Below are positions 20,879 through 41,131 of a DNA stretch of 64,000 nucleotides, piece after piece. The stretch's first letter is position 1. Each line of letters begins with the position of its first letter. Below the pieces are notes generated by a model. That model ran no database searches. It had not been told where the DNA came from and saw only the letters and a program-made list of their open reading frames with translations. The stretch comes from Isoetes taiwanensis. Lineage: Eukaryota > Streptophyta > Lycopodiopsida > Isoetales > Isoetaceae. Position numbers and translations under genes: made by a program. The DNA lies in the NCBI GenBank assembly GCA_021234155.1, contig JAJEKV010000009.1:8872546-8936545 (forward strand), given 5' to 3'.

Positions 20879-20937
20879 ATCATCTCGTCAAAGAAAAAGT
20901 TGGACCACGTAATTCCCTAAACGGGTGCCATCTACGC

Positions 20938-21952
20938 CTATGAAGCCAATCTTCGAAGTTCATCAACGTCTGCACTAAATAGGGTAGGTGACAAAGGGCA
21001 GACTTGTCGTACACCTATGGTGCTATATACCGGGCCCGATGCTCCAGTTCCCAACTTGATGATCACTTCCTCATACAAGCAAGCCACTGAGCTCCGCAAC
21101 GAGTCCGGCACACCTAGCTTTTCCATTCGCTTATCGAGGCCATCCCTGGGCATAGTGTCGAAAGCTTTAGAGAAGTCAATAAAGGCCATATATAAAGACT
21201 TCCTGGGTGCCTTAGCTTTCTCTGACAGAACTCGGAGAGTTAGTGCATGATCCAGAGTACTGTGATTCCTCCGGAAACCTGCTTGAGAAAGAGCCCTTTT
21301 ACTGTTTTCATCAGCTCAATTTGAATTCTAGCAAACTGCCTAACAATTTAGAAAACATGTTGCCCACCAAAATTGTACGGTAATTCTTAGCTTCTAGCAT
21401 GCTGCCAGATTTGTGGATCGGAATGATCCTGTTCTCTCGCCAGGCTTGTGGCAGGCCATTAATGACAGCTTCATTTAGTTGGTTCGTGATCACTGTGATC
21501 AGATCATCTCCTCCCCATTTAAACAGTTCAATACACATACCTTGTAGATCCGAGGCCTTGCCGTTTTTCATGTGCGAAAGAGCTTCCTTAACATCATCTT
21601 CATTGAACATGAGTTCGTTAGTGCGGAGTTTCCTCATTGATCCTGCACCTTCTTGATGGTAGAGCGTTTGCATCATCTCCAACATGCCGCTGATGTTCAC
21701 CATATCCTGCACGTTTGTGGCGAGCAATTTGGACCAGAATGTTTTTGGGTATTTTGTAAACCAATGCCCTAATGACTCCTGTCTTTGCTTAAAAAAGGTG
21801 CGCTTTTTACATCTGATTAAATCTTTATACCACTTTGGTTTAATTCTGATACCTTTTTGCAGCGATGCCCAGGCTCTACGACAATCCTGATCCCACCAGA
21901 TGGTGCCCTGGTTTTCTCTGCTTTGTATATCCAAAAATTTTACCTGCAGCAT
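20938..21952 (-). pseudogene. LINE reverse transcriptase N-terminal half
   Basis: Contains KNGKASDLQGMCIELFKWGG, NRIIPIHKSGS and KNYRTILVGNMFSKL in one frame, ending at 21311. It resumes in another frame with FIDFSKAFDTMPRD and RQVCPLSPTLF. The invariant Gly of QGCPLSPTLF is Val here. Stops between the two parts show loss of function. Confidence 0.8.
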
Positions 21953-22913
21953 GGATCATAACTTCTGTTAACATGGCAGCATCCTTGCTTAGGAGCCCTG
22001 ACCATTTGATCTGAGCGAGCTCATCTGACACGGCTTGTTTGAAAGCTGCTTCTTTTGTGTAATCCAGCTTTAGCTTAGGTTGGAAAACCTTGTCAGTTTG
22101 CTGTTTAATGGTAGTTCCTTCTAAGACTACTTTCAAATAGGCATGATCAGATTCTGGTAACTTGGTACCTATTTCAAAGTCTGTGACTAGGTGCGAGTCT
22201 CTGAGGGACATTGCATAGTCTACTGTACTTTCCCCCAAAGGGGTAAAACAAGTAGAGCCTCCCGAGTTTGGAAACCTGCTCATTCCATTCATGATGGAGA
22301 GACCGCATATTGTACCCAATTCAAGCAGATAATCCCCCATTAGATTCTTAACCGCATCATTTGAAGTTCTGAGAGAGCCTGGATCCACATATTCGGGCAA
22401 GCGGACATCTCCTGGCTGCTCAAATATGACGGATTGAGCCCCTTTGGTTCGTGCGTTAAAGTCTCCAACGATTAGTACTTCTCCCAATTCAATGAATTCC
22501 ATGATATCTTTGCAGAGTGCATGTAATGGATTGCTCCTGTCTAGATCTTGCTGCTGGTATATACTCATATTTAATGGTGCATAATAGCATAAAGCCATGT
22601 GAATCACCTTATCCCGCATATTCACCCTTATCCACATATGCTGATTATGTTCTTGTACTCTCACAATTGAGATAGAAGTCGGCAACCCTGGCCTTATATA
22701 AACTGCCAACCCTCCGTTACCTCTACCTACACCAGGTGTTTTTAAATTCCATGCAGAGCCTAACAAAATGAAGTTTGCAATATCTGGTAGAGCTCTGGCT
22801 TGGTGTTCCCAAGTTTCACAAAACAACACCATATCAAAATGCTTAATTTGTTCCGCAACTGCTTCTGCTTTTGCTTGTGTAAGCCCATGTATATTCCAAA
22901 ACATGATCTTCAA
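21876..22913 (-). pseudogene. LINE endonuclease domain, frame intact
   Basis: 345 codons from an ATG at 22913. EEP endonuclease motifs are MFWNIHGLTQ, LFCETWE, LIVGDFNARTKG, STVDYAMS and ESDHAYLKV, so the catalytic Asn, Glu, Asp and His positions are present. The frame is lost at the junction with RT at about 21900. It nicks target DNA to prime reverse transcription. Confidence 0.85.
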
Positions 22914-22989
22914 AGTCCTAAATTCCTAATAATTCTTTCGTTTTGTCAGAACTGCCTTCCCATTCTTATCCAGATATGCTACAAAACCT

Positions 22990-23625
22990 TCAGCCCTTGC
23001 TGCTTTCACTTTTTCCCATTCTATTTTCCTTGCTTCCAGTTGAGCTGGGGTCAAGTCTGGATCTAGATAGCACTTCTGTCCCTTCAAAACAGCAGCCCTG
23101 TTTCAGAATATCCCGGTCTCGTGCTTCCACACTGCGAAATTTAACCAAGACCGGTCTATTATACCCTCCTGGTTTGCCTAGTCTTCTGCCTTGCACAAAT
23201 TGCGGTTCATGCAGATGCATAACATCCCGAAAGAATGTATCAAGCACTTCAGTGAGGTCTTCACCTTCCTGCTCTGCTATGCCTGAAATTTTCAAATTCC
23301 GGGCACGGAATTGTTGATCTGTTTGCTCTGCTAAAATTCTCTCATGATGTATGGTCATCTGCTCCTTGGTTGATTCTGCAACCAAAGATACCATGCTTTG
23401 CACATCAACCATTTGGGTTTCCACAGGTCTGCTTAATGCTTCTTTTAATTCCAGATTTTGAGTCGTTAATGTTTTGTTTTGCTTAATCACTTCTTCAAGT
23501 AAACTTCTGAGCCCTGCAATCTCTGATTTCATTTCAAGTAGCATGGCAAGCATCTGGGCAGAGTCCCCTTCATACTCTGCCGGATCTCCTTTGCGGGGAG
23601 ACCCAGCTTTCTTTGGCCTGGTCAT
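22990..23625 (-). CDS. LINE ORF1 protein (coiled coil plus L1-type RNA-binding core)
   Basis: 211 codons, uninterrupted. A basic N-terminus (RPKKAGSPRKG) is followed by a heptad-rich coiled coil (about residues 25-65, LLEMKSEIAGLRSLLEEV). The RRM/CTD-like core resembles the Transposase_22 family of L1 ORF1p (ARNLKISGIAEQEGED, LDTFFRDVMHL, GRRLGKPGGYNRPVLVKF). It should trimerise and bind element RNA. ORF2 begins 76 bp downstream. It is intact although the partner ORF2 is broken. Confidence 0.75.
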   Translation of the reverse strand: MTRPKKAGSPRKGDPAEYEGDSAQMLAMLLEMKSEIAGLRSLLEEVIKQNKTLTTQNLELKEALSRPVETQMVDVQSMVSLVAESTKEQMTIHHERILAEQTDQQFRARNLKISGIAEQEGEDLTEVLDTFFRDVMHLHEPQFVQGRRLGKPGGYNRPVLVKFRSVEARDRDILKQGCCFEGTEVLSRSRLDPSSTGSKENRMGKSESSKG

Positions 23626-23640
23626 AACGGCCCAGAAACC

Positions 23641-24803
23641 CTAAAATCGAGTATCAGGAGGATAAGCAGAAGTAAGAGTTGCAAATCCGATGCAGAAAAG
23701 ATGTGATCCGGAATCAAAGTGCAAATCAAAGTGATCCGGAACAAATCCGGCAAATACGATTTGTGTTCTTTTTGCTGCCGCCCGAATAAACTAAGCGCCC
23801 AATGTTAATAAGACATGCAATATCGATAGCAATGCCGCATGAATCATTAATATTATACATAGATATTAAGCATCTCATACATCATCTATGGCTCAACATC
23901 TACATATATAATTTGTTAAGAAATACTTAGAGTTAATGACTTGCAAGGAAGTTTTGGGGTAACAAGTGGTAAGTTTGGGGATAGTAGAAAATGATGAAGA
24001 GGAGGCTTCAAAACTGAAAAAGCTGTTTTAAAAGAGGGAAGCACATCTATGTGCAAAGGATTAACATCTTAATGCATGATCTACCTCAAAAATAAAATGC
24101 AGATTTAGTGATGAACTGTTCGACCATGAATTTATGGGTTTCTATGTGCCCAACATTTGAGAATGAAGGATTAGGGCAGACAATAGGGTATTCAGCATGG
24201 CCAATGGCGAGAGAAGCATGGTTTAGATCCCTATATTTATGCAGGAGAGCCCCATTTCCTTAGTTGCATGAAAAAACATCCATGCACGATAAATGATCCA
24301 GCATGTTCTATATTTTAGATGTAATGAGAATCTTGTGGGTTCAGTGTACAGCGAGACATATTGTGCAACAGTCTTGCCTGTTAAAGGCGCAACTAAGCCG
24401 TTGAATAAAATAACATAATTACAACAAATTTAGTATAAGTGACGTTTTAGCTTGTTTGGCTTAGCAATGATTAAACATTTTTGCTAATGTTCTATTGAAA
24501 TACAAATGGAGGATATAGTCAGATTGCTTGGTGTATTTTTTGTGTAAGGATTAAGAGTCATTGCTATTCAACAATACATTATACTAAGTCATATCAACTG
24601 CAATCTACACATACCAGGCTGTATAGGCAGTACCAAACACTTATCAGAAACATAAGCAAACAGAGTACTGAAATAAAATGCAATATCACATGCAACTTTG
24701 GGTTTTCCAAATCTGGTCGAAGATATTGGCATCTTATAAATAAATAGGAAATAATCAGAACATTTAAGGACACTTGGTTCATATTTGTTAATCTGTTATA
24801 GCA
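23641..24803. other. No gene seen
   Basis: The first ~150 bp may be LINE 5'UTR (CCGGAACAAATCCGG-type repeats of GATCCGGAA near 23707-23745). The rest is AT-rich with no coding segment. Confidence 0.45.
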
Positions 24804-24810
24804 AAATGTG

Positions 24811-25003
24811 TAGCATCTTACATGATGGTGTCGCTTTATTTGCCGCCTTGTCTTCCTTGGCTGTGCAAAAAGATTTGGTCCCTAGTTCATATATATTAAT
24901 CTATTATAATAGTTTGCTCCATGTCAATTGTTTGCACGGAAATACCTAGCACCTTACATGATGCAGTGGCTTTATTTGCCGCCTTGCCTTCCCTGACTGT
25001 GCA
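24811..25003. repeat. Direct repeat, 57 bp at a 136-bp spacing
   Basis: TAGCATCTTACATGATGGTG...GGCTGTGCA at 24811-24867 recurs with about 85-90% identity at 24947-25003. The second copy forms the last part of the UTP21-like exon and its GT donor, and UTP21 similarity stops exactly where the repeat starts (25003/25004). Confidence 0.85.
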
Positions 25004-25981
25004 TATTGGTGGAGCACTATGACCACTTCTGAAACATAGTAACCTGCGCTCACCATCAGATGAATCAAATATCCACATCTAAACAACATTGCATAGGTTA
25101 GTAATGTAACATGACCCCAATAAACATGCCTTAATCCCACCTTAAGGGAGTTATCTTTTGCATTACTGAGGAGAACAGGCTCATTTGGAAAAAAAAATGC
25201 AAAGAGGTAATCTCCAGATCATGTGCATATTCTATCACTGTCTTCAGCTTACGATCTTTTAAATTCCAGATGCTTATGATTCCAGATGCATCTCCTGCTG
25301 TTAAAAGTGGTTGCCCATCTTCCAAATTACATATAAAAGGTATAAAAGGCATTGGCAAATCCTACATCATTGTGCTGAAATAAAGTCTTCCTCCCCTCAA
25401 GCTATAATAGAATTGCCTTGTTATCTGAAGAGCGTAATACCTGTCCTAAAAGAAAGTGCAGTTACAGGCCCTCTGTTTGTGTGAGTAAAAGTTACAATCG
25501 TTTCATCATATAGAATATTATGAACACGTATTTTCCCATCCGAACAACCAACAGCAATGACATCCAATGCAGGAGATGAAAGACATGTGTGGATTGAAGT
25601 ATCCCAGCCTTTAAACTCATGAACCAACTGTTGTGATTTTATATTCCTTAGTTGCAATGGTCCTTCATCACTGCAAATAAGCACCTGAGAAGTCCAGTCA
25701 CTTGCATATGCCTCAAAGAGTGACTTGTTTTATGTACAGTGATAAATACTGGGATGAAGAAAATAATAGCATCTACCTTATCAAGGTAAGTGTCTGGATG
25801 AACTATGCATGTTGCTGTAAATGAATTTCGAAGCTGCATCTGAGCTAAAGGCTTCACAACTTCCCTAGAATCTACATCCCCCATTTGCCATATGCAAAGA
25901 TGCCCTGTTGTATCAACACTTAGGAGATGCTGGCCGAACACTAGAAGAAGTTTTACTATTATGCGCCTTCCAGGTAGAAAT
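24958..25981 (-). pseudogene. UTP21: Truncated copy of UTP21/WDR36 (U3 snoRNP WD40 protein), four exons
   Basis: Minus-strand exons with consensus splice sites: 25981-25777, 25684-25441, 25318-25141 and 25078-24958. They read ISTWKAHNSK...LLLVFGQHLLSVDTTGHLCIW, then EGPLQLRNI..EFKGWDTSI and SSPALDVIAVGCSDGKI, then DGQPLLTAGDASGIISIWNL, then MWIFDSSDGERRLLCFRSGH. These match the first beta-propeller of UTP21, which acts in 18S rRNA processing. Lesions are a ~5-base deletion in the first exon, a 9-T run (7 would keep frame) in the third, and replacement of sequence after GHSAPP by a local repeat. N- and C-terminal thirds were not found. Introns are kept, so this is a DNA-level fragment, perhaps Helitron-captured. 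Confidence 0.8.
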
Positions 25982-26466
25982 CTGCAATGACATAACAACA
26001 GTTCGTTGTTATGTGACTATACTTTAGAAGAGCAAATTCCATAGGTGATCGGTCAGTAAGAAAACTTCTAGTAACTACACGTTTCCAGTGAGTCAAGACA
26101 ACTCAAAGAAAGAAAGCAATAATGTATTAACATCACCCTTAGGGCCTGAGACCAAACAAATACATCTGTTCTTTATCATCTGAAAGTGTTGGAGAAAATC
26201 CCTAATCTTACCCTGAGTAACTCATCATGTTTTCCTCTCATTATCCAACAGAATGATGCCAATCTATATATGATTCAATCAACTTAAACTAATGCCGGAC
26301 CTGAAAAGAAATAGAAGAATAACTCCGTCACCTGATTAGATTGAGCTGGAACAACTATTGCTTTGAAAAGACATCGCTTAAAAAACATGAAACCGGCCTC
26401 ATCAGAATGTAAATTGATGGACCAAGTTCTATAAGAATGAAAAAATCGATAATGCAAAGATCTTAC

Positions 26467-26543
26467 CAAATAATGCCCAAACCTTCTGGCCTTCTGCACT
26501 GCTTTTGGAGCAAGTTGCAAACGTCTCAGAATCATGTATACAC
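26467..26543 (-). other. Exon-like segment of unknown identity
   Basis: On the minus strand, TATATGCAG acceptor, 77 bp, then GTAAGATC donor. One open frame reads HDSETFATCSKSSAEGQK. It lies on the same strand and upstream of the UTP21 pieces, but does not match the UTP21 N-terminus as I know it. Confidence 0.3.
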
Positions 26544-27448
26544 CTGCATATACAACCTACACTAAGATGCATATACAAATACCATCTGCCCTAATATGCT
26601 CTATTCCCCCATCCACATCCCTTAGATGTCAAACATGTCCTCTATCCAAATCCATTAGACATGTGAAACATGCGATGCTACTCTTAAATTTTGTTATCGC
26701 CCGCCGTCTTAAATTTTGTTATCGCCCGCCGATAATTTAATACTTTTATTCAAGCTATAGCATGTCCAAATATCTAGGTTCAATAAACTGTTCTTATTAA
26801 TATAAATAAGCTTACTCAATCCTAAAAATATTCCTGCTTATAGGCAGCCTTCTATCCCGCCTTCATAGACATGTTGCAGAGCAAGCTGAATATCAGCTCC
26901 GATTGTAGTTCATGAGAGCGATATTAAAGCTCCTACAATTTGATTTTTATAGGGCCTGCAGTTTGCAAGCTGTTATCCAGTTTTGCAAGCAACGTTTTTG
27001 TCAGCTTCACCTGTCAAACTCATTTGGTGGAATAGACCCATTCATGCTAAGTTTTGTCTCGATGTGTAGCAAGCACAGTTAGGCTTCAAACTTTACTGCT
27101 GTGTTCTACCATAGCCATGGCAAAATCATGTGATACAACAGTTTTCTTCCAAGTATGGTTACAGCAAACTAAAAGTACAGTAAAAATTTGCCCTTCCGGA
27201 GGATAACAATTAAAGCATGATTTCATTAATTGGAGAAAATAACGCAATTTTGAGAATTTTAAGCACACCTAATTTGTTGAAGCACCAATACTTTCACCTA
27301 CTTCTTGAGTCCAAGATACACGAGGTCACAACATACACATATCCATACAAATTATGCGTTATACTTGTACGTGTACGTGATACTTGTACAAGTTCAATAG
27401 TGGCACTACAATCTACACCAATAATTCACATCAATAATTTTACTTCAC
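26544..27448. other. No gene seen
   Basis: AT-rich. A 22-base direct repeat containing TTAAATTTTGTTATCGCCCG occurs at about 26685 and 26711. The last ~150 bp are the upstream region of the small gene at 27491. Confidence 0.5.
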
Positions 27449-27455
27449 TATAAAA
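27449..27455 (+). promoter_or_regulatory. TATA box of small gene A
   Basis: TATAAAA followed by GCAGCTCCATTCGATGGTA, closely matching the TATAAAAGTAGCTCCAATCG of gene B. Upstream ~110 bp also match gene B (CATATCCATACAAA, GTACGTGTA, CAATAGTGGC). Confidence 0.75.
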
Positions 27456-27468
27456 GCAGCTCCATTCG

Positions 27469-27732
27469 ATGGTAAAGGCCATTCTCTCCCATGGCTTCCT
27501 TGCCTCCTCGTCCGGAGACATCCGATCCTTCAAGTGCTACCTGAGCTATAATGATCTGTGTGAATGCATGAGAAATGGTATCAATCTTGATCCATGGTTG
27601 CAGTCCAAAGCAGATGGTCCTGTGAGTGGTTGCAGGAAGCTCACTCGTGTTGTGGTCCACCTTTACTGGCTTCCTGATCAGGAGATGTATGAGCTGAATG
27701 CCATCACCTTAGCAGGTGTTGATGATGAGTGA
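27469..27732 (+). CDS. Small paralogous gene A, unknown function (start probably frameshifted)
   Basis: Up to 87 codons. It aligns along ~70 residues with gene B at 28131 (KCYLSYNDL/KCSMSYNDL, LQSKADG/LQSKANG, VVVHLYWLPDQ/VMIHLIWLPER, acidic end VDDE/GDDD). By alignment with gene B, the start should be the ATG at 27491, 42 bp after the TATA box. That ATG is out of frame because this copy lacks one base in the first ~45 bases. The in-frame ATG at 27469 lies only 14 bp after the TATA box, so it should be upstream of the transcript start. Either transcription starts unusually early or the gene is freshly broken. Family not recognised; no signal peptide, membrane segment or zinc motif. Confidence 0.55.
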   Translation: MVKAILSHGFLASSSGDIRSFKCYLSYNDLCECMRNGINLDPWLQSKADGPVSGCRKLTRVVVHLYWLPDQEMYELNAITLAGVDDE

Positions 27733-28087
27733 ATCGTTCAAGACTTGTGTACCTGTCAAGGATATAATAATGATATGTGAGCACTTCTAAAGTATGTAAG
27801 GATGTAATAAGCGTAATCAATATTATTTGATGTATCGAACCTGATAATTTTGTAAGGGTGTGCTCTTCGACCTCCACTTTATCTGCAGGCAGTCCCTAAT
27901 TTCAATCACACCTAAATTACTCAAGCACAAATACTTTTACTTCAGGAAAATCGAACATACAAAGCATGTTTTCACTTGACACACATATCCATACAAAATA
28001 TGCATTATACTAATGTACGTGTATACACATCACTCTTGTACGCACTCAATAATGGCGATACAGTCTACTCCAATCATTTTTCAACAG

Positions 28088-28094
28088 TATAAAA
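28088..28094 (+). promoter_or_regulatory. TATA box of small gene B
   Basis: TATAAAA 37 bp before the ATG at 28131, a normal plant spacing for a short 5'UTR. The surrounding ~140 bp are conserved with gene A. Confidence 0.8.
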
Positions 28095-28130
28095 GTAGCT
28101 CCAATCGGAGGTAGAGTTCATTCATCTTCC

Positions 28131-28370
28131 ATGGATTATTCGCCTTCTTCTGTTCACAACATCGAGGCGATCAAGTGCTCGATGAGTTACAATGATCTCG
28201 TCGGTTGCCAGTTAAGGAGTATTCTTCTTGATCCCTTGCAATCTAAAGCTAACGGTGCTAAGATTCGTTGCCCCCGGATGCTGCGTGTTATGATCCACCT
28301 TATTTGGCTTCCTGAACGCAGTAGCTATGAGATAAGTGGGATCACCTCAGCAGGTGGTGATGATGATTGA
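28131..28370 (+). CDS. Small paralogous gene B, unknown function
   Basis: 79 codons, single exon, TATA box well placed, start MDYSPSSVHNIEAIKC. The core pattern is K-C-x(2)-SYNDL-x(10)-LDP-LQSKA-x-G, then a basic R/K-C stretch and hydrophobic VMIHLIWLPER, ending in an acidic GGDDD. Conservation with gene A at protein and promoter level suggests a real small gene family duplicated in tandem (662-bp offset between starts). The predicted fold is a compact alpha/beta or beta domain, but I recognise no family. It lies 180 bp from the 3' end of the transposase-like gene, so it might be cargo of that element. Confidence 0.6.
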   Translation: MDYSPSSVHNIEAIKCSMSYNDLVGCQLRSILLDPLQSKANGAKIRCPRMLRVMIHLIWLPERSSYEISGITSAGGDDD

Positions 28371-28390
28371 CTCACCTATTCTGTGTAAGA

Positions 28391-28474
28391 GCTCTTGTAG
28401 TAAGATGAAAAATGCAGAGCGTAATGTAATGTTTAAAGGCTCTTGTGTTAAGATGAAAAATGCAGAGCGTAATG
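28391..28474. repeat. 36-bp direct repeat, 48-bp period
   Basis: GCTCTTGTAGTAAGATGAAA plus AATGCAGAGCGTAATG at 28391 recurs at 28439 with one or two changes. It lies in the 3' region of gene B. Confidence 0.9.
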
Positions 28475-29249
28475 AATAATAACTAGTCTATTGTACCTTG
28501 CATGTTATATATGGTATAGTAATTACATAAAAGAGCATTGCATACCTCATGAGTTCTCATCATCGTCGTTAGATTCTTTAGCCACTAATTCTTGCAACTG
28601 AGCCCCCACACTATTGGGGATCACCACTAACAACGGCCTGGACTCTACCGCCCAACCATAGTGTATTGTTTTCAGATGTTGGTAGCGTGGCAGGTCATTA
28701 GGATTGGGTCTCCACTTCTTGCTCCAGCAATCTCTATACTGCATTGCATATGAGGTTCCCTTTCTGGCAACAGGCTCAAACCAAGACACAAACACCTCTT
28801 CGTAATGAGGGAGATTAGGGTCCTCTATTGGGTCCTCTTCGGCAAAAGCCATCCATGTCGGGCAGTTATCATGTGGCCTGATAAGCAAGAGCATTCCTTT
28901 CTTAACATCTTGGTAGGGGTCGAATATTTCAATTGGGTTCTTGGGTCTACCCGAGAAAGGCCCTACATAGTGAGATGCTTCAATGTGCTCATCCACCAAC
29001 ACGTTTTCGGGTTCTTCCAATGCATTTTGCCTGGTGTTGGGCCAGAAATCCTGAATGACTGCTCTACTGGGCTGAACGTCCCCAAGCACTCGCAACAAGG
29101 TGGACCAGTAGTCAATTACTTCATTCATATATGTGTTGGACCATGAGTTATTGCCAGCTCTAGAAATAGCTGCCCAATGCATCATGTACTTGGCAATAGA
29201 AGATCTCAATGCACCTATATCTTTCAAGCTCGCATATGGCTGCACGACC

Positions 29250-30959
29250 TTAGGTGACCCTGTCGAAATGGTAGGTAAACCCTGGGCATCCTCCTTTCCA
29301 CATCCTGATTCCCTTTTCAGGGAGCCACTCCCTATGTCCTGGCCTCATCTTGTAGAACATTAATGGCCATCCATCTTTCATGCAGAACTTGAAGAGTAGA
29401 GGTTCCAAATGACCACATAAACGGTCCTTCTTATCAGGGATAAAACCTTTCACGAATTTCTTCCAATTAGGAACCTCAGTCACAAGGTAAGGTGAAGAAG
29501 ACTTGGAACTACACTGCCTGAAGAGTTGCATAAGCTCTGGAATAGTCAATACATCTGATCTTCTCATTAGAGTAGAGTAGTTTCCAAAGAGGGCATCTAT
29601 GTCATCGTCGGTGAGTCCAACCATCATGAATCCCAGCTGCACTTGATCAAAGACACCTAACCAAACCAAGTATGACAAGTAAGAGAAAAGATATCTATTC
29701 TTATTTTGACCTGAGCAATTATCTAGCTGCAAGTAAAGCCTCCTAGGCAACTTGTTTGGTACCATAGGGCCCTTGATAGGAGGCATAAAATCATTTCTAC
29801 TGCCATTTACCATTTTTGTCCTAAGGGCATCCGTGTTTAAAATTGCTCCACCCCAGCAGCTTTCAGGACGATTTGTATCTCTCAAATGGCCCCAATTATC
29901 CTCAGATTTATTCTCCAGTGTCTTCAAGGTATGATTCAAGGATCCCACATGAAAATTGGAATCATCGGGCCAGAGGTCCAGTGAGAAGTGGCCCAAGGCA
30001 CCTATACCATGCCCGTGCATGAGAGCACCTGTAACACTCACCTTCAGTCGTTCACCCCTCCACACAGACTTTGCTAGCTTTTCTAGACGAGGAACCATGG
30101 TCTTATTCTGATCCATCTTGTCATGTATAATGGTTAAAGCGTGCTCAGGAGATCTATGAGACAAAGCTCTCCAGGACCAGTAAAGTCTCTTACAAAAAAT
30201 CTGGGCTGTCATATGTGATTTTCTCTCCATTGCAAGTTCCCTTCTTTCATTTGGATCTCTGGTCTTAGCAAGCTTTTCCTTTTTGACAATAGAGGTGTTA
30301 CACTTAGAAAATGCTATCCTCTTAGCTATTGCCACCTCTGAATGATTCTCTTTCCATGCAGACAGAAAGGACGATGGAGAAATATGCTTGTCTGTCATCT
30401 CTATAACGGTAATATCTATTTCTTGGTGTATATCCTTCTTAGTCAAGACTGAAGGTAGCCTCTTAACATTTTGTCTGCTACCCTCGCTCGTAATTTTCGA
30501 GCGGTGTGGCATCGTCTCTGCGTTTTCATCTATGAACATAGATAGCACAGCATTGCCAGCCAAAGTATGAGACCTTGGCTTCTTAGAACCACTATTTCCG
30601 TGCTCAGCAATTCTGTGGCCACCCATGAAGAGCTTCGTCCACTTGTAAAAAGTGGAAATGGGTATGCCATAGGCTTTATGCCATGCTTTCACGCACACCT
30701 GCTTGTTATTCAACATCAACTTGCCCACACTACCATTTTCAGAGCAAAGATCTAGCATGTTATATGCAAAGGTTGTGCGCTCGGAGGACGTCATGTTCCA
30801 GTAAAACGTTCTCATGCAAGCTATCTCCTTGGATGTAAAATTTGCATAGCATCTTTTCATGCAGCACAGTGATGACCTGAAGTCTAAAATAGCCTCAGCA
30901 CTAGTTTTCCTTTCACATTTGGTCTGTGCGGGACGTGTCCTGGGTCTCCGATTGACCAT
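29250..30959 (-). pseudogene. DUF7869-like domain segment of the transposase-like gene
   Basis: 569 codons open without interruption. The signature LQLDNCSGQNKNR...SYLSYLVWLGVF..V..GFMMVG is strong. In family members I recall, the next motif reads VGHTH(E/D)DIDALF; here it reads VGLTDDDIDALF, so two His are replaced. The Asp of LQLDN and the D/E cluster suggest an RNase-H-like DDE fold, but that is an inference. Length and position agree with the usual size of this domain. Confidence 0.75.
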
Positions 30960-31296
30960 GCGGTAAGGTCTCTTTTTTGTGACGCCAATTTCGGGTTTAA
31001 TGGCATAAGGTTCATTTTTGTGACGGCAACCACGAGAGTAGAAACTGGAATGTTATCAACAAGCACGAAGGCTATGGGTCATCTTACAAGGTCATGCAGT
31101 TGGGGCATTTCTGCACAGGCTTGCCAGCGCATAGAGATCTTTTCAGGCATTGGAAATAGGCTCATGATAGTAGCAGCTATCGAGCCTTCTCCTAACTTCA
31201 TGTCAGCAACAGCATGGTTTGGATCGGCAAAAACGATAACACCACACCCGTAAGCCATGTGGCAGCATTCATGCATGAGTGTGCATGCCTTCTCGA

Positions 31297-31656
31297 CTAG
31301 CTCATCTCTAGAGAGCCCTTGCACATGATTTGTCTCATTATTGCCCAACCTCCATTGCCTCCGACCTGCCAATTTATGCGTTTAATCTGTCCTGGTGGCG
31401 TGCAAACTTCTTCATCTCCCACAAACTGAACATCAATGTCCTTTTTGTACCACAAGACAAAACTCCCAACAGCTTCACCAAGTTTTTCTATTTCTTGCTC
31501 AGGACTTGGTAGTGGCAGCTGTCCATCGAAAACATTCACAACTGAAACAACCACCATACTCTCCGGGACATTCGAATTGTGATGTCGCTCAAAGTTGTGG
31601 ACTCTTCCTTCTGCCACCTTCCTCCCCAGCAGATAAAGCGAGATTAGATCCGCCAT
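31297..31656 (-). pseudogene. DUF8039-like N-terminal segment
   Basis: Starts MADLISLYLLGRKVAEG directly after a TTTTGTAG/G acceptor. FDGQLPLPSPEQEIEKLGEA then VGSFVLWYKKDI matches the LP(I/V)P...(I/L)G(D/E)AVG(T/S)F(V/I)xW pattern of DUF8039, known from CACTA-associated proteins in plants. Continuity to the next segment (LSRDELVEKACTLMHECCHM) needs a frameshift within 31300-31372. Confidence 0.6.
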
Positions 31657-31657
31657 C

Positions 31658-31977
31658 CTACAAAAGAGTGATCGTCAACATCGCGGTCGCGATCTTCCTC
31701 AGCTAACAGAGGTCTCTTTTAAGGAGTCAATTACGCAATGACACTTGGGAACTAAAATATAGTCAGCACAATCGCCTCCGCGATCTTATCTAGCATTGAC
31801 AAGATCGCGGTTGCATTTTCTGTAACCATCTATACTTGCTACGACTCCGATACAACTTTGACCAGGACTGGATCACACGCTATTATTAGTTTTGCGTTTC
31901 TAGGGGAGATCGCGGCCGCGATCTCCTTGAGCACAATAGTTAAAAGGTTGACTCTGACACTAAAGCATTACTCTTAC
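31658..31977 (-). other. Predicted intron 1 of the transposase-like gene, carrying four palindromes
   Basis: Minus-strand donor AAG/GTAAGAG at 31978/31977 and acceptor TTTTGTAG at 31658, then G-ATG. The intron contains palindrome cores at 31680, 31771, 31803 and 31908. The upstream exon (31978 upward) appears non-coding. Confidence 0.55.
31674..31940. repeat. Palindromic motif cluster 1 (four copies of GATCGCGGCCGCGATC type)
   Basis: Cores at 31680-31693 (ATCGCGGTCGCGAT), 31771-31784 (ATCGCCTCCGCGAT), 31803-31815 (half-decayed, GATCGCGGTTGCA) and 31908-31923 (perfect GATCGCGGCCGCGATC). Flanks extend the symmetry in some copies as CTCAG..(N)A..core..T(N)..TGAG. Confidence 0.9.
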
Positions 31978-32835
31978 CTTGTAGGTCTCCAAATGGAGCG
32001 TTAGCGTCTCCTCGAAGCCAACAAGTCGTCAGAAGCTGCAGTGCCACCAAAACATTTGTTGTATCATAGAAAGGGAGAAAGAAAACATTTTATAGTAGAC
32101 ACAACAGAGTACACACGGAAGGCAAAATGTTTATATTTCCTAAATTAGCCTAGTGGTTTGCGGAAAACATCTGTTTTTAAATATTCCAATCTGAAATACC
32201 GGCAGGTATCATATAAATGCATATATTAAATAGGGTTCTTTCAGTAGAAACAATTCAATGCCAACATTTGTGAAAGGAAACCTTCTTTAAGGATAAATTA
32301 TGTGGTATTGATCATCAACTATCAGCACAGTCTTAACAGGTAGTAATTATCAGTCACCATTGTTGCAACATTAACTTTCAATTAACTTTACTGAGAAATA
32401 GGCATCAGGATAGCTCTCTTACCTTGCCCGAACGACAAAATTCGATGGAGTGGAAGAAATTGAATTTATTAAAGCGGAATATCAACGCTTCATCAGCGCC
32501 TTCAATTGTTGCTGGAATCTGCAGCAAAGCCTTCTTAGAATATGGCACTGCTTAGGCGCAGCTCGAGTGGCTCCAAGATCTTGCAAAACACACTAATTCG
32601 AATTGGCTTTTCCCGCTTCAACCCCAATTGTTTGTTATAGAATTCAAATTTGCCTGTCACTGTCTGTCCGTAATATAGTGTCTATTTCGGGCATTTATGC
32701 CCACTTTTCATTCTGGTGCAATTAATGAACTGGCTGTATGCATAATATTTGAACGCGGACGTCCAATTCGATAAAGACCTTTAGTACGGAATTACCCGCT
32801 CTAATTTTAGGACACTTTCGCACGGACGAATTCAT
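31978..32835. promoter_or_regulatory. Shared intergenic region of the divergent gene pair
   Basis: No coding frame. On the minus side it should contain the first exon and promoter of the transposase-like gene; on the plus side it leads to the 20-bp tandem array and the TATA box at 33066. No TATA box on the minus side could be fixed. Confidence 0.4.
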
Positions 32836-32960
32836 GGCCGGTAATTAATACAGCCGGCGGGACAGTCATTAATACGTACGATGGGTAATTAATACGTACG
32901 GCGGGTAATTAATACATCCGGCGGGTAATTAATATGGCCAGCGGGTAGTTAATGCACCAG
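32836..32960. repeat. 20-bp tandem repeat (GCGGGTAATTAATACGTACG), about six units
   Basis: Units start at 32836, 32856 (with a 5-bp insert), 32881, 32901, 32921 and 32941. Each has a G-rich half and an AATTAATAC half. The GC-rich part matches the CpG-rich character of the palindromes. The array ends about 105 bp upstream of the TATA-like sequence of the + strand gene. Confidence 0.9.
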
Positions 32961-33050
32961 GCCGTACGGCAATTATGGCGGGCACGGAAAACTAGGCACC
33001 ATTATGGCACGGTATTTATGTCGCCATAATGGCTGGCGGGCATTTAATTT

Positions 33051-33064
33051 TCGCGGCCACGATC
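33051..33064. repeat. Palindrome variant immediately upstream of the TATA-like box
   Basis: TCGCGGCCACGATC, one mismatch from the 14-base core of the palindrome family. It is the only copy found outside a predicted intron. Confidence 0.7.
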
Positions 33065-33065
33065 C

Positions 33066-33073
33066 TCTATATA
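33066..33073 (+). promoter_or_regulatory. TATA-like box of the + strand element gene
   Basis: CTATATATTTAG about 97 bp before the ATG at 33163. This spacing is compatible with a 60-70 bp 5'UTR. Confidence 0.55.
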
Positions 33074-33190
33074 TTTAGTTCCAGCCGCGTCTCAGCAGCG
33101 CCTCAGCAATCAGCGCCTCAGCAACCTCGACCAAACAGCCACTTTTTCGGCGCCCGCGATCCATGGCACCAAAGGACGTCCTCAGAGAAG

Positions 33191-33555
33191 GTAAATCCTA
33201 CCATTTCAGCTCAGCAAGATCGTGGTCGCGATCTTTCTTAGCAGATTGTTTTATAATTTTTGTAGTATAGATGCTCAGTAGGATCGCGGCCGCGAACTTG
33301 TTGAGTATAGCTTTTCTTGTTTTGTCCAGCTTAGCTGCTAGACAACATCGCGGCCGCGATGGTGCCGAGTAGTATTTAGTTTGTTGATTATGTTGTGTAG
33401 GTTTTGTAGTACCTTTGTTGGTACTTTTGTTGCTTGGAAGATGCATTCATCTGTTCTCGAAAGGATCGCGACCACGATCCTTTTGAGTAGTTTATATTTT
33501 CTCTATTAGGCGTTATCCAGCCTATCATGCACTAAACTCATGCTTTTGTTTATAG
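33191..33555 (+). other. Predicted intron 1 of the + strand element gene, carrying four palindromes
   Basis: Donor GAAG/GTAAATCC and acceptor TTTTGTTTATAG. It contains palindrome cores at 33218, 33282, 33347 and 33464, mirroring the four in intron 1 of the divergent gene. Confidence 0.6.
33210..33490. repeat. Palindromic motif cluster 2 (four copies)
   Basis: Cores 33218-33233 (GATCGTGGTCGCGATC), 33282-33297 (GATCGCGGCCGCGAAC), 33347-33360 (ATCGCGGCCGCGAT) and 33464-33479 (GATCGCGACCACGATC). The 33464 core is a perfect inverted repeat apart from its central bases. Flanks share GCTCAG(C/T)A(A/G) before and TT(C/G)TTGAGTA-like after the core. Confidence 0.92.
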
Positions 33556-35103
33556 CCCTCGCGTTGTTTCGTGGACCGGATGTCGAGCCCATCCGTATTA
33601 TCCGTCAAATGAAAGGAAATGGTGTATAGAGATTGCATAGGCTATCCCACACATTGCGACCGGAGAAAGGACCTGTATTTGTTCCTGCGCACTGGAAAGA
33701 AAGCTGAGGACATTGAACAAATAGGTATAGTAGTGGCAATGTGGGAAGGCACCAAGAACAATGTCCAAGATGCTATCATATGCAGCATCGAGGACACACA
33801 ACAGTTGCAATTTCTAGAATACATTTTGAAATGGCGGAATTATGACCCGTCGATGATGTCAGCTAGCAAGATGAACAAGCCAGCCACTGGGAAAAATGTC
33901 CCAACATTAGCTAAGGGTTACGGCTGGGTGTTGCCATCTTATGAATCTCTCTCTTTGTCAGGTATAAAGGGAAATAGAGACATCTTGGTAGGGTTCTCGG
34001 CCTGCAGAAAAGGTTTGTCTACAGACAAGAAGCCATCGAGCAGTGCTTTGAAAGCAGTTCGGGATGAAAAAATGCCCTCAGTGATGGACACCAATTGGCT
34101 AAGAGCCGTGGCCAAGAAAAGAAGTGTGAAGCCAATAGCTACTTTAGGAGAGCCTTCAATAGCAAAGAAACACGTTGAAGAACCACAATCCACCATAAAC
34201 CCCTCCAGTATTGTTAACCCTACTCTTCTTCTTGCTATAAAAGGCCCAGATAGCTCTACTTCTGGTGCCTTCATTCCTAAGAAAAATACTACTTTCAAAA
34301 TAAACCTTCATAATCTGAACACTGAGGAAAGCCCACAGTCCAGCAATTCTCAAACCCCCCCTGCTGTTACAGAAGTCTCTTCTGCTAAGTTATTGACATG
34401 GCCACACCTACCTGCCATCCAATCGAATTGAAGTTCAATCCGGAAGAGGAACGCAAGATGGCAGAGCAGACTACTCAAAAGCTTGAACAGTTTAAACGGT
34501 TCTACCTTTAGGGGTTAACTGGTTTACTAAGATTTCTATTTTTGATTGTGAACCAGCACCGGCAAACCTGACACACCGAATGCGCTCAAATGACCATGTT
34601 CAAACACTGGTTAAAAGCTTCAAGACATACCCAACAGAGGTCCTCACGCCTACTGATGAGCGTACCATTTGACCCCATTATGAGGTGATTGCTTGTTTTT
34701 CTTTTAGACTTTCATTATTTAGGCTTGACTTGATCGTTATCCATTTCTTTAGGAAGAGGGTGACATGGAGCAATCCAGAGGATCTGAAGGGCAAAAATTT
34801 TACATTATATCCGGCAATCACAGTATTTGAGCGGCACAGCTTCTCTGTTCGGTCGTCGGGCAGTTAGAGCAACAATTAGAATTTGCTAAAGTCTATGCTA
34901 GAAGAAGATCGAGAGTGCTCAAAGGAAATCTGACAGACAAAGAATACATAGAGTTGAGCATTCAATGCAACGAAGTGATTGCAAACATCGTCTACAGAGA
35001 GCCTCTAATAGAAAAGCTGCAACAACTTCGTCATCAGCACAAAGCTTATGGCTGTCCTCCTCAAGGACCTATAGGGACTGCAATGAGTTCAGCTTGGAAG
35101 ATA

Positions 35104-35164
35104 GTTATTCATTTTCTACTCACCAACATCGCGGCCGCGATATTGACGACCTTTGTTTCTGCAG
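35104..35164 (+). other. Predicted 61-bp intron with one palindrome
   Basis: GTTATTC donor and TTTCTGCAG acceptor. Removing it joins SAWKI to DSHEIATTT in phase. It contains ATCGCGGCCGCGAT at 35128-35141 in the flank ACTCACCAAC. Confidence 0.6.
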
Positions 35165-35402
35165 GACTCCCATGAAATTGCAACCACCACTTTGAAAGTG
35201 CAGGACCTCAAAGATGAAAAACAATTCATCTTTATGGAGGAAAAAGTTTTCAAGAAAGTAATGGAAGTTGCTGGAATGTGGGTGAATCGTAAGCTCAGTG
35301 ATGACCATAGTGAGTTTCCGGATAAACCAAGCAAGGACTTCTTTAACAAGACCTGGCTACGGTTCCTTCGAGGTATGTCGAATGCAGAGGTGGCATATAT
35401 AG

Positions 35403-36101
35403 CTGCTAGATGAAATTATGGAAGGCAAGACGTATCTAAAGGTGCAGTCATGGTATAGCGGCAGGTTTGATTGCAAGCAACGGGCAACTGACATTAGAAC
35501 TCTAACTTTTATGAGGCGTGAAATATTATCCTATGCCTCTAATTTTCTGCAAAGGGATTTCGATAGCTTCGAGGAATTGCTTTAGTCTTTTCCTGATTTT
35601 ACAGAGCAGAGAACACTAGATATATCAGATACTGATACAGAGTACGTGAAGGCAAATTATAACAAGGACCGTACACTAGGCAACCTGCCTGTGGCCTTCA
35701 TGGAGCCAATCAGAAATATTCTAAAGCCAGAAGAGGCTGGAAAAAGAAAGGAAAAGAAAAACATTGTGCTGGCAGTGATAAAGGATGGCATCCCTACATC
35801 CTCCACAGTTTCCGAGAACGCCACTTTGATATTCATTGACATCCGAGGGATCAACAAGGTATGGGATTGCAAAAAATATACAGACCTTTTTACAAGGATA
35901 GCCACCATGACCACTGCAAAAGTTTATCATTTGGTTGTTATCATGCGCTCTGTGAATTTGCCGAATTGCATGTACAGTCAGAAGCAGATTCAGGGAGGGG
36001 GTCATCTGTCCTTGGGTTCTTATGAAGAAGTAGGGATACTGATGTTGCCCATACATGTTGACGTAGCTTGCTCAATGCTCCTTACAATGACATCTAAGTA
36101 G
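35403..36101 (+). pseudogene. C-terminal segment of the second element gene
   Basis: One frame from LLDEIMEGKTYLKV to the stop at 36101, broken only by TAG at 35583 (EELL-stop-SFPDF). Later parts are NLPVAFMEPIRNILKP, basic GKRKEKKN, then alternating hydrophobic stretches (ENATLIFIDIRGINKVWD, KVYHLVVIMRSVNLPNCM). The last pieces look like a globular alpha/beta domain. I do not recognise it. Confidence 0.5.
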
Positions 36102-36587
36102 ATTCAATACTTAACATTTCCCCAAAACTCAAGCTTACACTAAGGCAATTCCCCCATATGCAACTCCATATTAGTTTCTGTTAAATCTATTAACCATAAC
36201 AACTCACCATACTTCTTACATGTAATTCTCTTGCCAATTCATCCAATACCATGTCGGAGTAGCTAAATAAGTGATGAAGACCTAATGACCCAAATAAATC
36301 AATGTAGCATGCTTAGTACCACTACTCTGATGTAGATGTAGGCTAACTTCACATTGTTATTTAAATAAGATCACTTAGCTATGGTTTTATTTCTTTAATA
36401 TAACTAGCAAAAAAGCACGTCAGGGGTTGTGGCCCAGCAAGATCATGCTAAAAACTATGAAAGGCCAAGCAAGATGGGCAGTTTTTCTCATCTATAATAA
36501 TCTAGAGGAAATGACATTGCAAAATTTAGAAATATAAGATAAGATGCTTTTGTGAGAGTGCATCTTAAAACTTCACATCTTAATACA
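36102..36587. other. No gene seen
   Basis: AT-rich sequence between the element gene and a Helitron end. The right terminus of the two-gene element should lie in or beyond this stretch; no terminal inverted repeat matching the left flank was found by eye. Confidence 0.4.
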
Positions 36588-36617
36588 ACTAGTTATGGTG
36601 CCCGGCGTTGCCGGGCA
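36588..36617 (-). mobile_element. Helitron-like 3' terminus
   Basis: Minus strand: perfect hairpin GCCCGGCAACGCCGGGC, spacer ACCATAA, terminal CTAGT, flanking T. Nearly identical to the one at 19202. The body would extend to higher coordinates. Confidence 0.7.
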
Positions 36618-38990
36618 TATGTACAAATATGAGTTAATGCGAAGCATTTGGTTGGATGGAAGGGTGATTTTAGAGAGAATGCACAAATTTAGCAAGAATA
36701 TGTAAAGCCAAAGAGATACCAAATGACATGGATTTTGATTGAATTGTGTTGTACATGAATCTGAGAAGGTGAACACATAGCGTCTTCAACCCTTGTCAAT
36801 ATTAGTATTTTTTTTTGCTATTCCATCTTATAGTATCTTTTCTTGCTATTTTAGAAAGCTAGGTCCGCTCATAATGCATGAGGTTTGGGTGAGGGTTCAA
36901 CGTCGTCCAAATTGTAGAGGAGATAGACTTTGTGTATGTGGTCTTTGAGATAGGCTTGATTATGCTATCTTGGATTCGATACCAATTTGAACATGCTCAT
37001 TTGATGCAGTGCATGCCCACATCAAATTAAGATATGTCATATAATAGAATGCTTGTTCAAATATTCCTCGTCAAGTATTACTATAGATGACATGTTTAAG
37101 ACAACCTAATAAATAAGATATGTCACATAATAAAAAGCTTGTTCAAATATTCCTTGTTAAGGATTATTATAAATGACATTTTTTTTAGCTACAAATAGCT
37201 TACACAATTGTTTCGTGCCATTCATATATTCCTCAGCAAGAATGACTGTGCATGATATATTTCTAGCTATAAATAGGGTATCAATTGTTTCGTGCAATAT
37301 TGTGAGAGAATTTCAAGGAAAAGCATATAGTGTGTGTCTGCTGGACTAATGGGGCTACACATTCTGCTTTTACAATGAATAAAACTATCCCATTAATTTG
37401 TGCAAAAGTAATACTATTGAGATACTACACTCCCAAGAATGCATGCATTACACTCCAAGCATTTGGATCCCATCCATAGGATAGGTATAGAAGCTGCATA
37501 TGCTGGGGTCATCATAGACAGATAGAGATTTAAAGTTATACAACCTTAAGACTGATGTACATTTATGAACAACATATTAACAAAACATACAGCTAGAAAA
37601 ATCCATAAAGACCACCAGTATGAAATAGAATTTGTAAATCTTCATTGTATAAGAATTCATAATGACAATTAAAGAACCTGTACATGAAAACGAGGTAGAT
37701 CTTCAGTGGGATGCCTGAGAACCTCTACAACAATATAGATAATCTGGAAGCACAAATATAACATAATGTGCAAACAAAAAAGAAATTGGTGGAACTTTTA
37801 GAGTAATTATTGGCAGACCCAAGTTGGTTGCGTCTGGTAAATTATAAACATTAAAAGAAGAAATGATGTATGTGTATTATGTATGTATTGAAAACATTAA
37901 AGTCCGTGGAGACCTGATGCTATTCTAGGAACAGGCAAATCTGGAAGTGCAAAAGGTCATAAGAGTAGAAATAGACCCGATCCGGCAGTAGAAGTATACA
38001 ATATCGTCAATATTCTTCTATGCTTTCCTTGCATGAGTAGCACCATTGTACATGTTAAACCATGTTTGCTCAATAGCATGTTTTAAGCATCTATGGCCGA
38101 ACAATTTAGTATGTTGGCAGCATTAACACTATGTCTAACATCCTCCCAAACAAAGCCAACAATAACAAAGCCTGGCATGCTGCAAAGATTTCCACATGCC
38201 TTGCAATTACTACATTTTGCTATGTGTCCATGTTCAAATATCTATATGACATCTGACTAAACCCTTCTAGCTCAGATACAACTATACAAAATTTGAGAAT
38301 ATAACTCATCTTGAAATGGTACTCACAACCAAGTGTCATAAGGATGGCAAATTTGCCGCTATCTAGTAAAGATATGAAGGTTACCTTGGCACAGCTTTCT
38401 CTGGCCTAGGTAGAGTGCTAAGTATTTTTAGTACTTAAGTCCTGCCAGCCCAGACACTGCTGCAAAATTTGAAGACAAAGATTGACAGAATAATTCTCTT
38501 GCCGTTTAAAATATTAGCATAGTCACCAGAGACAATTTATCAGACATTGCATACCTCCATGCATTTGATACCTAATTTGCTCGATCCATCACAATATTAC
38601 AAGTTCCCAGGTCTTTCGCTTATTGCTTGGCGTGATCGTGGCAAAAGCTGGAGTTGCTTAGAATCTTCATGCATAGTATCCTGATAGAAAACCGAAAAAT
38701 CCAATGCTAAAACCGAAAATCCAATGCTAATTGCTCATATTATGAAGAAACAAATTTCCATGGGCACCTGACTCTGCTGGATTTCGCCATATCTTGGAAG
38801 TGAAAGAGCACAAGTAAGCCGTGATTCCAGTAATGCTTAAGCCTAAGCCCAAGCTTGCTGCAAGAAATAAGAACCGCCCTCCCATTGTATACATTGGGCT
38901 AGAAGCGGCCGCACTGAGACGGCCGGAGTTTCCCCAACGCTGCACCTAAGGCATACCTTATTGAAACCGGATTCCCCATCCTGCACACTG
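36618..38990. other. No gene recognised; probable Helitron interior
   Basis: AT-rich. TATGTCACATAATA(A/G)AA(A/T)GCTTGTTCAAATATTCCT-type sequence is repeated at about 37026 and 37117 (period ~91). Minus-strand frames at 38727-38945 (with a hydrophobic FLFLAASLGLGLSITGITAY) might be a captured exon, but no family is recognised. Confidence 0.4.
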
Positions 38991-39106
38991 CAGAGAAATT
39001 CGTTGAAGTAAAAAGGTCTTTTTGTTTCCCTCTGGATTTGCAGATTAGACCCGCACAATGCAGAGCAGAGAAATTCGTTGAAGGAAAAAGGTTTCTTTCT
39101 TGCTTC
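38991..39106. repeat. ~45-bp direct repeat, ~71-bp period
   Basis: GCAGAGAAATTCGTTGAAG(T/G) followed by AAAAAGGT and a T/C-rich tract occurs at about 38990 and 39062. A related pair, GGAGTTTCCCCAACGCTG, occurs at 38927 and 39373. Confidence 0.8.
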
Positions 39107-41131
39107 CCTCCTTTTTATTTCTTGCTTCCCTTCTTGCATTAAATTTTTGCAGCGGGAAATGGACGAAACTTGTTGGTACAATAACAGGGACGAACTTTAT
39201 TGCTACAGTAACAGGACATATGCTAACTGGTAGTAAGTGCCGGTTCCTATTGAGGTGTCGGCAATATTCCGGAAAGCAGTATTTTTTATGCGGAAGGTGT
39301 TCCGTCACTTTGCCATGCTGGACGGCAAGTTGGCATTTTAAAACGGAACATTTTGCCTCTGCAGCTCTGCCCCGGAGTTTCCCCAACGCTGATCGGAAGT
39401 TTTTTCCGGCATTTAAAACATTCAAAACCATAGGAAATAACCTTAAAAAAAAATACTAAAAAGTTTTCGGAACCCCGGAAAAACCGAATTTAAACAATAG
39501 GATTACTAGAAATGTGTGCCTGTTAATGCCGTGCATTATTAATGGACATATGAAATGGGTTGTGTAATAGGATTTGTAGGTGGAAAAGAATTTTGTAAAT
39601 CTAATCGTATAATAGATATAATGGACCTAATGGACTACCAAATTGTGAAAAGGGTTAGGGATGTCTGATATTAGCCATGAGTGCGTGGAATTGATAGGTA
39701 GGAACAATGAATTTTGTGGAATTGAATTGATAAAGTAATGAACTGCAACCTTAGGCAAAAAAAAAATTACAATGCATAGTTTGTAGGTGTAAAAGAATTT
39801 GTAAATGTGATTGTATTTCTACTGGGCTGCCAAAATGGGTTAGGGATGACAAATATTAGTCATGGTATATGGAATGGGTTGGAATGATGAAATGTATAGT
39901 GGGTTGGATGAATAGACATAATGGATTGCATATAGAATTACATCTTACTGTTTTCTTATTATTTTCCATTTTCCATGGTTGGCATCACTTTTTTGGGACA
40001 TTTATCTTCATGCTAAAATTATTTCTTATTCATATATGTCTCTATAGAAGGTTATTTCCAATGTGCAGAACTACCTTATCGCATGAACATCATAATTCAC
40101 CGAAGATCGAGCATATCTAAGTAAGGTATGCATAGCACAAGACATCTATATCCCAGGCATAAATTTTTAAAATTTATTTTTAATTAGTGATGGAAAAAAC
40201 ATCCTTTAAATTACCATTCTTTTAATATATTGATGACACAGTTCTTCAAAAAAAAAAAAAAAACCTTTAAATTAGTACCTGAGGGGACAAATGGTCACCA
40301 AGTCTAATACATTGATTCGGAATCAACTATGAAGGAAACTATACAAGCCAGGGAGGCTGATAGTCTTAACTGAAAGGGAAATACCAATGCATACCACACA
40401 ACTAAACCCCAACTTGCAAATTGAATCTGACTCGATTCTAATGCTGGAATACAAATAAAAAAGATGGGATGCTGATAAACGCTAATTATGAGAGATGGGG
40501 AACATGACATCGGATCTTAACTACAACATTATTACGAGATAAGTATGGGTGGAAGCTTTTAACTCGTGCAACTAAACATAAGCAACATAACATAACTCAC
40601 CATGAAGTGCAAAATAAATTTGATTCAGACATAAAATCTTTCAAAAGATTACAATGGCATTGCCACAATGACATAGGAAATGCAACAAGTGATCAAGCTT
40701 TATTAGGGTCATTAAGAGGCACTTAAATAATGAATACAACATTTGAAATAGCAAACTGTACAAATAGAGCAAATATTAATCTGAAATAAAATGACAATCT
40801 TGTTCAACATCAAGTTCATAGCCACTTTTTGACATTAAGGCATGGAATAGGATGCGTAAGCTTGTTTCATTATAATGGTTTTCGAAATTTTTGAGACATG
40901 GATCAAGTTGGCATTGGCTAGAGGAACAATTAAAAAATGCTAAGAACTAAAAGAAATAAATCGAACTTTCATGCATCTACTAGCTTTAAAGATGTTGCAT
41001 TCTAATATGTAGCATAATAACAGGGGGTTTTCTTTGTATTTTTGTACGCTTTTCACTAAGGTTTTCCTATGATTTCGTGATGTATTCAAATGGATGTATT
41101 AATGCGTACATCTAGAGTGCACCATTTCTGA
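39107..41131. other. No gene seen
   Basis: AT-rich non-coding sequence. A 119-codon + frame at 39100-39459 has no recognisable domain. Confidence 0.45.

Follow-up and report, generated by a model that had tools for sequence, protein, structure and literature searches.

What is the unit formed by the two divergent genes in the middle of this stretch of Isoetes taiwanensis DNA, a minus-strand gene with a DUF7869 domain and a plus-strand partner gene, and what are the long palindromes in their introns for? The window, by which we mean the whole analysed stretch of 64,000 nucleotides (contig JAJEKV010000009.1, positions 8,872,546 to 8,936,545), had been given an initial annotation that proposed a mobile element pairing the DUF7869 gene with a divergent partner and with its own palindromes, and the copies, ends, linkage and palindromes found here bear that proposal out. 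By genome-wide sequence searches (1.66 Gb, 1,110 contigs), positions 27213 to about 36034 of the window hold a decayed copy, truncated on the right, of a DNA transposon that is present in high copy number and has terminal inverted repeats and 4-bp target duplications. We infer, with a probability of about one half, that the partner protein binds the palindromes as a dimer and that this self-recognition marks or unsilences the element's own copies, thus protecting the expression of the putative transposase.

The ends of the element are considered first. The initial annotation had recommended that flanks of several copies be compared in search of terminal repeats and target duplications, and both were obtained. 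The terminal inverted repeats are about 26 bp long, with the consensus AAGCA[AT]GA[AT]TT[AC]ATTAATT[AG]GAGAAA, and this pattern has 901+964 = 1,865 genomic sites at up to 2 mismatches, with 0 for the reversed control. Nine convergent end pairs were chosen for having both ends visible in the match lists (two single ends were also fetched), and in 9/9 of them an exact 4-bp duplication directly flanks the repeats (TATA, ATTC, AGAA, TATA, TTCT, ATAT, TGTA, ATTT and CATT). Because the pairs on C51 and C712 have identical flanks, these are eight independent insertion sites; the two insertions concerned (L069/L070 and L075/L076) lie in opposite orientation, indicating a segment that was duplicated or redundantly assembled. 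From the end coordinates, end-to-end copies span about 9.4-10.5 kb (C51, C712, C218 and C911), two short end pairs span 4.2 kb (C394) and 7.9 kb (C907), and three pairs lie 16 to 36 kb apart, which either contain further insertions or are not single elements.

The limits of the window copy follow from the places where other copies part from it. With 23500-28600 as DNA query, 28 of the 29 element-side rows start at query 3708-3716, or window 27207-27215, so that the start moves to 27213 from the 28547 first assigned. When 35500-41000 was the query, each of the 15 other rows in the plus-strand gene, among the matches listed, ends at query 518-535, or window 36017-36034; the other copies part from the window there, and therefore the window copy is cut off at that place, which means that 36101 was not the gene's end. 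Four stretches beyond the cut-off were fetched, among which L066 and L067 share the missing part up to a common end about 1.6 kb further, where intact right ends lie; L065 diverges from these two about 16 bp before their common right end, and in L068 an interruption follows about 0.8 kb on. Of the 41 rows obtained with L066 as query, 32 end at 1658-1673, matching the end of L066's own inverted repeat (1660), two reach the query end (L066's own place included) and 7 stop earlier. On the left side, two element-free paralogous flanks match the window up to 27211 and then differ; the target duplicate of the window copy would be ATTA, where these flanks read ATTT, and their right flank is absent from the window except for one 75% match at 60255. 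Another copy (L100) has its left end, as judged by eye, inside a reverse transcriptase gene of a long interspersed nuclear element (LINE).

The two genes occur together. For the partner open reading frame (ORF) at 33613-34431 there are 2,985 candidates, of which 142 were scored and give at least 143 genome matches, and the idea weighed in the initial annotation that this might be an ordinary single-copy host gene is thereby set aside. For the transposase ORF, 73 of 15,837 candidates were scored, with at least 76 matches. Among the 73 listed transposase places (window included), 19 have a listed partner place within 12 kb, where 0.15 would be expected by chance, and in all 19 of these pairs the partner lies on the strand opposite the transposase, divergent from it and 1.3 to 4.7 kb away, as had been described for the window alone. 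For the other 54 places no partner is among the matches listed, which is not evidence of absence.

In the window copy both genes are split into several frames. The first exon of the partner gene encodes 9 residues and is followed by a 365-bp intron, and two more introns, both short, lie further on; with exons 2 to 4 of L018 joined, 747 residues with one stop are obtained, and the splice phases were checked by joining in other copies. Twelve loci were joined or tried in full, with all five junctions needed, and the others failed a junction or had more stops. From the pieces of two copies, the full partner protein is estimated at about 1,160 residues. Between subfamilies, the nonsynonymous substitutions per site (dN) of exon 2 are 0.30 and 0.26, at proportions of synonymous differences of 0.87 and 0.86, where synonymous sites are saturated, and dN of exon 4 is 0.31, with the same saturation. 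With dN so low at saturated synonymous sites, the partner is therefore an old gene under purifying selection. It is noted that one partner copy of 46-48% identity, L002, has its N-terminal part joined directly to the C-terminal segment, with the central ParB-like and methyltransferase-like parts missing.

For the minus-strand gene, DUF7869 is matched in Pfam with E 1.8e-39 in the 600-residue ORF of the window and 1.4e-43 in L064. It is the only domain matched in the transposase ORF, where D...D...GHTHDDID is read by eye as a DDE-type catalytic core, and the protein is called a putative transposase here. The second label given to this gene, DUF8039 (which we take to be PF26133), is not supported, with no Pfam match at E up to 10, the presence of that model in the Pfam copy being unchecked; DUF7869 and DUF8039 as literature terms returned nothing. 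The transposase has no match among PDB sequences, and none was confirmed among viral contigs. For its codons, dN is 0.164 and the synonymous substitutions per site (dS) 1.73 between L038 and L046, dN/dS is 0.28 between L038 and L040, and pairs involving L064 have saturated synonymous sites. Sola1 transposons make 4-bp target duplications, the length found here, and the likeness to Sola1 lies here in the duplication and the gene layout. VANDAL elements are Mutator-like, with a Mutator-type transposase and 9-bp duplications; no Mutator family is among the Pfam matches of the transposase ORFs submitted, and the present duplications are of 4 bp.

The palindrome is a 36-bp symmetric site, TGCTC-N6-ATCGC-N4-GCGAT-N6-GAGCA. 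The window has 9 sites matching ATCGCGGCCGCGAT at up to 3 mismatches, all within 31680-35141, where 0.36 are expected and 0/100 shuffles reach 9. Three clear sites and one degenerate site lie in the first intron of the minus-strand gene, four in that of the plus-strand gene, one at 33050 and one at 35128; the short first exon of the plus-strand gene and the intron lengths of 365 bp and 320 bp stand as first annotated, and the count of four palindromes in each intron is to be corrected for the minus strand. None of the 9 sites is in coding DNA (P about 4e-5 to 1e-4 for uniform placement with approximate exon limits). In the genome, the exact 14-mer with the GGCC centre alone occurs 961 times (reversed control 0), and exact matches to ATCGC-N4-GCGAT-N6-GAGCA number 697+672, with 0 for the reversed control; in that count, sites whose two arms are both perfect enter twice. 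Sites at up to 3 mismatches are present in 57 of the 60 loci L005-L064, the loci without any being L020, L054 and L058, and in partner loci the sites are often arrayed with 46- or 64-bp spacing.

The subfamilies share the ATCGC/GCGAT half-sites and, less strictly, the outer TGCTC/GAGCA arms, whereas the four central bases differ, with 31 different centres counted. Each arm, at up to 1 mismatch and in fixed orientation, is present in 125 of 222 distinct sites, and 62 sites have both; at five shifted positions the count is 0 to 7 of 277. When the upstream non-coding DNA of L018 is compared with that of L004, L001 and L002, of subfamilies with saturated synonymous sites in the partner exon (BLAST, E up to 1), the matches are mainly the palindromes, the others being exon 1, a ATTATGAC-type repeat and one weak AT-rich match. 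In the shared 5' region of the window, 32868-32953 holds four tandem 20-bp copies of ATTAATACGTACGGCGGGTA, close to ATTATGGC-type repeats.

What the partner protein may do is approached through its divergent copy L089, of 38-61% identity to family 1 by piece. Its matches are weak but consistent: a segment matches PF01555 (N6_N4_Mtase) with E 0.0056 and a 62-residue fragment cut around the motif with E 5e-4, both below the gathering score; a DNA methyltransferase family of PHROGs is matched with E 0.0035; 24 phage records are matched at E up to 10, the best being a methyltransferase at 3e-5; and two PDB sequences, both RsrI methylase, are matched at E 1.9. An hhalign comparison with eight phage methyltransferases gives 89.8% over 53 columns around motif I, against 0.3% for the ParB-like segment as control. 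Motif I reads DFFSGGTASRVALMQGKRSIAFE; it falls in the portion that the window copy has lost and other copies retain. The family-1 partner pieces have no match among phages, nor has the L089 reading among plasmids. The C-terminus of the partner thus appears to resemble the S-adenosylmethionine-binding end of a beta-class N4/N6 DNA methyltransferase. The catalytic motif IV, DPPY, is not seen in the copies read (one divergent copy and a few close ones, some frameshifted), where its likely position, set by eye, reads FVDMRS or FIDIRG, and therefore catalysis looks lost. Upstream of this part, a segment with F[YF]IISGNHS has, judged by eye, a likeness to ParB.

Based on these features, our proposal would work as follows. 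A dimer of the partner, through its ParB-like or a neighbouring segment, would bind the 36-bp palindromes; this sequence-specific binding would mark or unsilence the copies of the element itself, in the way that VANC proteins act on the VANDAL elements of Arabidopsis; and in the unsilenced copies the expression of the transposase would be protected from host silencing. The long palindromes with fixed half-sites and a variable centre suggest a dimeric binder. The partner is the best candidate for it because it is encoded by the element, is divergent from the transposase in every listed pair and resembles a class of proteins proposed to bind their own element, and as motif IV is apparently lost, a role in binding is favoured over one in methylation. 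A more specific version, which we regard as tentative and to which we give clearly less weight, is a parS/ParB-like self-recognition in a plant transposon: a retooled, catalytically dead ParB-methyltransferase would bind the intron palindrome arrays, and the centre and arms would drift so that each subfamily recognises, and unsilences, only its own copies.

Several points weigh against the proposal. The C-terminus of the family-1 partner has no methyltransferase match in Pfam (the best is an unrelated CENP-Q at 0.086) or in NCBIfam, and in PHROGs its matches are confined to families without an assigned function (0.025). For the ParB-like segment, Pfam and NCBIfam give no match; in PHROGs and PDB it has matches at chance level or to unknown functions only (a kinase at E 1.6, and none in a second PDB search); and hhalign gives 1.3% against the ParB proteins of N15 and P1, which are poor seeds, not being hits of PF02195 themselves. 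A single-sequence AlphaFold2 model of the window ORF reached a predicted local distance difference test score of 34.7 and was discarded. Moreover, in intron 3, as compared in 25 of 30 partner loci (close copies), conservation of the 36-mer is 0.931 versus 0.923 for the remainder of the intron, so that short-term selection on single sites is unsupported.

The binder could also be the transposase instead of the partner. In this alternative, which is unlikely although the best placed of the rivals, the DUF7869 transposase binds the palindromes or is regulated through them, and the partner has some other role. The TNPA sites of En/Spm are a model for such transposase-linked sites. The first introns of both genes hold arrays, one or two sites occur in the 3' region of three of the four right-side stretches (L065, L066 and L067), and the DNA-binding domain of the partner is only putative, all of which would fit. 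By contrast, the left 4.4 kb of the element in the window (27213-31679), its left end included, has no site, and the sites cluster in the introns and the middle rather than symmetrically at the ends.

Slightly less probable again is an active methyltransferase role for the partner, by which it would mark its own element with N4-methylcytosine or N6-methyladenine. The presence of motif I DFFSGGTASRVALMQGKRSIAFE is consistent with it, and the same role has been proposed for the algal relatives in the available text of PMC12477816; the reading FVDMRS or FIDIRG, in place of a DPPY-like motif IV, speaks against it. We consider it improbable, and more so than the foregoing, that the palindromes have been kept to serve transcription of the element, be it as enhancers, promoters, splicing signals or host-factor sites, with no dedicated binder encoded by the element. 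Their positions in the first introns and the shared 5' region, together with a TATA-like sequence seen by eye upstream of the partner, would agree with this, whereas the variation of the centre bases between subfamilies fits an element-encoded binder drifting with its sites. Finally, that these are host genes with chance repeats and not mobile is ruled out by the thousands of candidates, the inverted repeats at the ends and the duplications in 9/9 pairs.

It is also noted that the element is not confined to the two genes first described. Left of the transposase, the small ORF B (about 80 residues) has matches in 28 of 30 transposase loci (not L037 and L045), some with stops or gaps, and a further small protein is thus conserved. 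Its dN/dS values are higher and scattered, with a median of 0.55 and a range of 0.03-0.94 in the 41 of 66 pairs among 12 intact copies that have dS above 0.1. In L036 the transposase is 92% identical to that of the window while the small ORF is near-identical to the distant L064 type, which suggests recombination between subfamilies. The coordinates of all features are collected in Table 1. Elsewhere in the window, the ORFs at 4720-8298, 13584-19276, 19985-23640, 49390-51341 and 60879-63778 read by eye as LINE and Copia polyproteins, and Rfam and tRNA scans of the window found nothing. The genes with introns and the retroelements look, by eye, like those of a plant.

Table 1. Features of the transposon copy in the window, from left to right.
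Feature	Position	Strand	Basis
Left terminal inverted repeat AAGCATGATTTCATTAATTGGAGAAA, first bases of the element	27213..27238	+	DNA search, genome-wide pattern count
Small ORF A, 87 residues, paralogue of ORF B (47% identity); TATAAAAG at 27449	27469..27732	+	ORF list, sequence comparison
Small ORF B, 79 residues, acidic tail; TATAAAAG at 28088	28131..28370	+	ORF, matches in transposase loci
Putative transposase coding region, frameshifted in the window copy	28547..31656	-	ORFs, Pfam, genome matches
DUF7869 (PF25273) match	29346..29756	-	Residues 433-569 of ORF 29250-31052, minus strand
320-bp first intron, just upstream of the transposase start codon	31658..31977	-	Sequence; palindromes at 31680, 31771 and 31909, a degenerate one at about 31804
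Shared divergent 5' region, limits approximate	31985..33160		Sequence; 20-bp tandem repeats 32868-32953, palindrome-like site 33050
Partner exon 1 (MAPKDVLRE)	33163..33190	+	Sequence; found in other copies
Partner intron 1, 365 bp, palindromes at 33219, 33283, 33347 and 33465	33191..33555	+	Sequence; exon joining in other copies
Partner exon 2, no Pfam match	33556..34684	+	Genome matches of the ORF
Partner exon 3, ParB-like motif F[YF]IISGNHS in other copies; splice donor mutated in the window	34753..35100	+	Copy comparison
Partner intron 3, palindrome at 35128	35101..35164	+	Palindrome scan, copy comparison
Partner exon 4 to the truncation, probable motif-IV position FIDIRG	35165..36034	+	Copy comparison

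The element can be compared with systems in print, described here from the available parts of the sources. Sola1-1_Ec32 of the brown alga Ectocarpus is likewise a large DNA transposon with an accessory gene opposite the transposase, whose protein, with ParB-like and N4/N6 methyltransferase domains, has 1,104 residues versus about 1,160 here; such algal ParB-methyltransferase accessory proteins were proposed to bind and modify their own element, with no DNA target named in that text (PMC12477816). It differs in its length, 21.5 kb versus about 10 kb, and in its host, a brown alga versus a land plant; in the Isoetes element, moreover, no DPPY is seen, and it has arrays of the 36-bp palindrome, of which that text makes no mention, and the extra protein of about 80 residues. 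Sola2 elements with Fanzor1 passengers have AT-rich 4-bp target duplications, short inverted repeats and a second protein as well; their passenger is a Fanzor, and the likeness lies in these described features (PMC3627910).

VANDAL elements with VANC are plant DNA transposons with a transposase and a second gene, and with element-specific motifs repeated in introns and other non-coding DNA (PMC5735166), as is found here; VANC21 binds its motifs in introns and intergenic DNA for a sequence-specific removal of methylation (PMC5735166; PMC10398659). By contrast, the VANC21 motif is of 9 bp with no long palindrome, and the available portions of these two accounts mention no methyltransferase-like domain. 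Mobile elements that acquired a DNA methyltransferase domain are also known among retrotransposons, where, however, the enzymes are C5 cytosine methyltransferases carried by a retroelement (PMC5890265), whereas a resemblance to the N4/N6 class is found here in a DNA transposon.

A Sola1 transposon that carries a methyltransferase-like accessory gene on its opposite strand is thus a kind already in print (PMC12477816, as available), and the architecture is not new in that part, contrary to what was first supposed. As far as the literature was searched, in which the palindrome and the small protein were not searched by name, what is new is the occurrence in a land plant, the system of 36-bp palindromes, a catalytic motif that seems to have been lost and a small conserved protein. 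An element that carries both the partner gene and palindromic tags might recognise its own copies and shield them. To a class of accessory proteins for which the available algal account names no DNA target (PMC12477816), the Isoetes element supplies a candidate one, and with the 36-bp palindrome as a concrete candidate target, self-recognition by a transposon accessory protein becomes directly testable.

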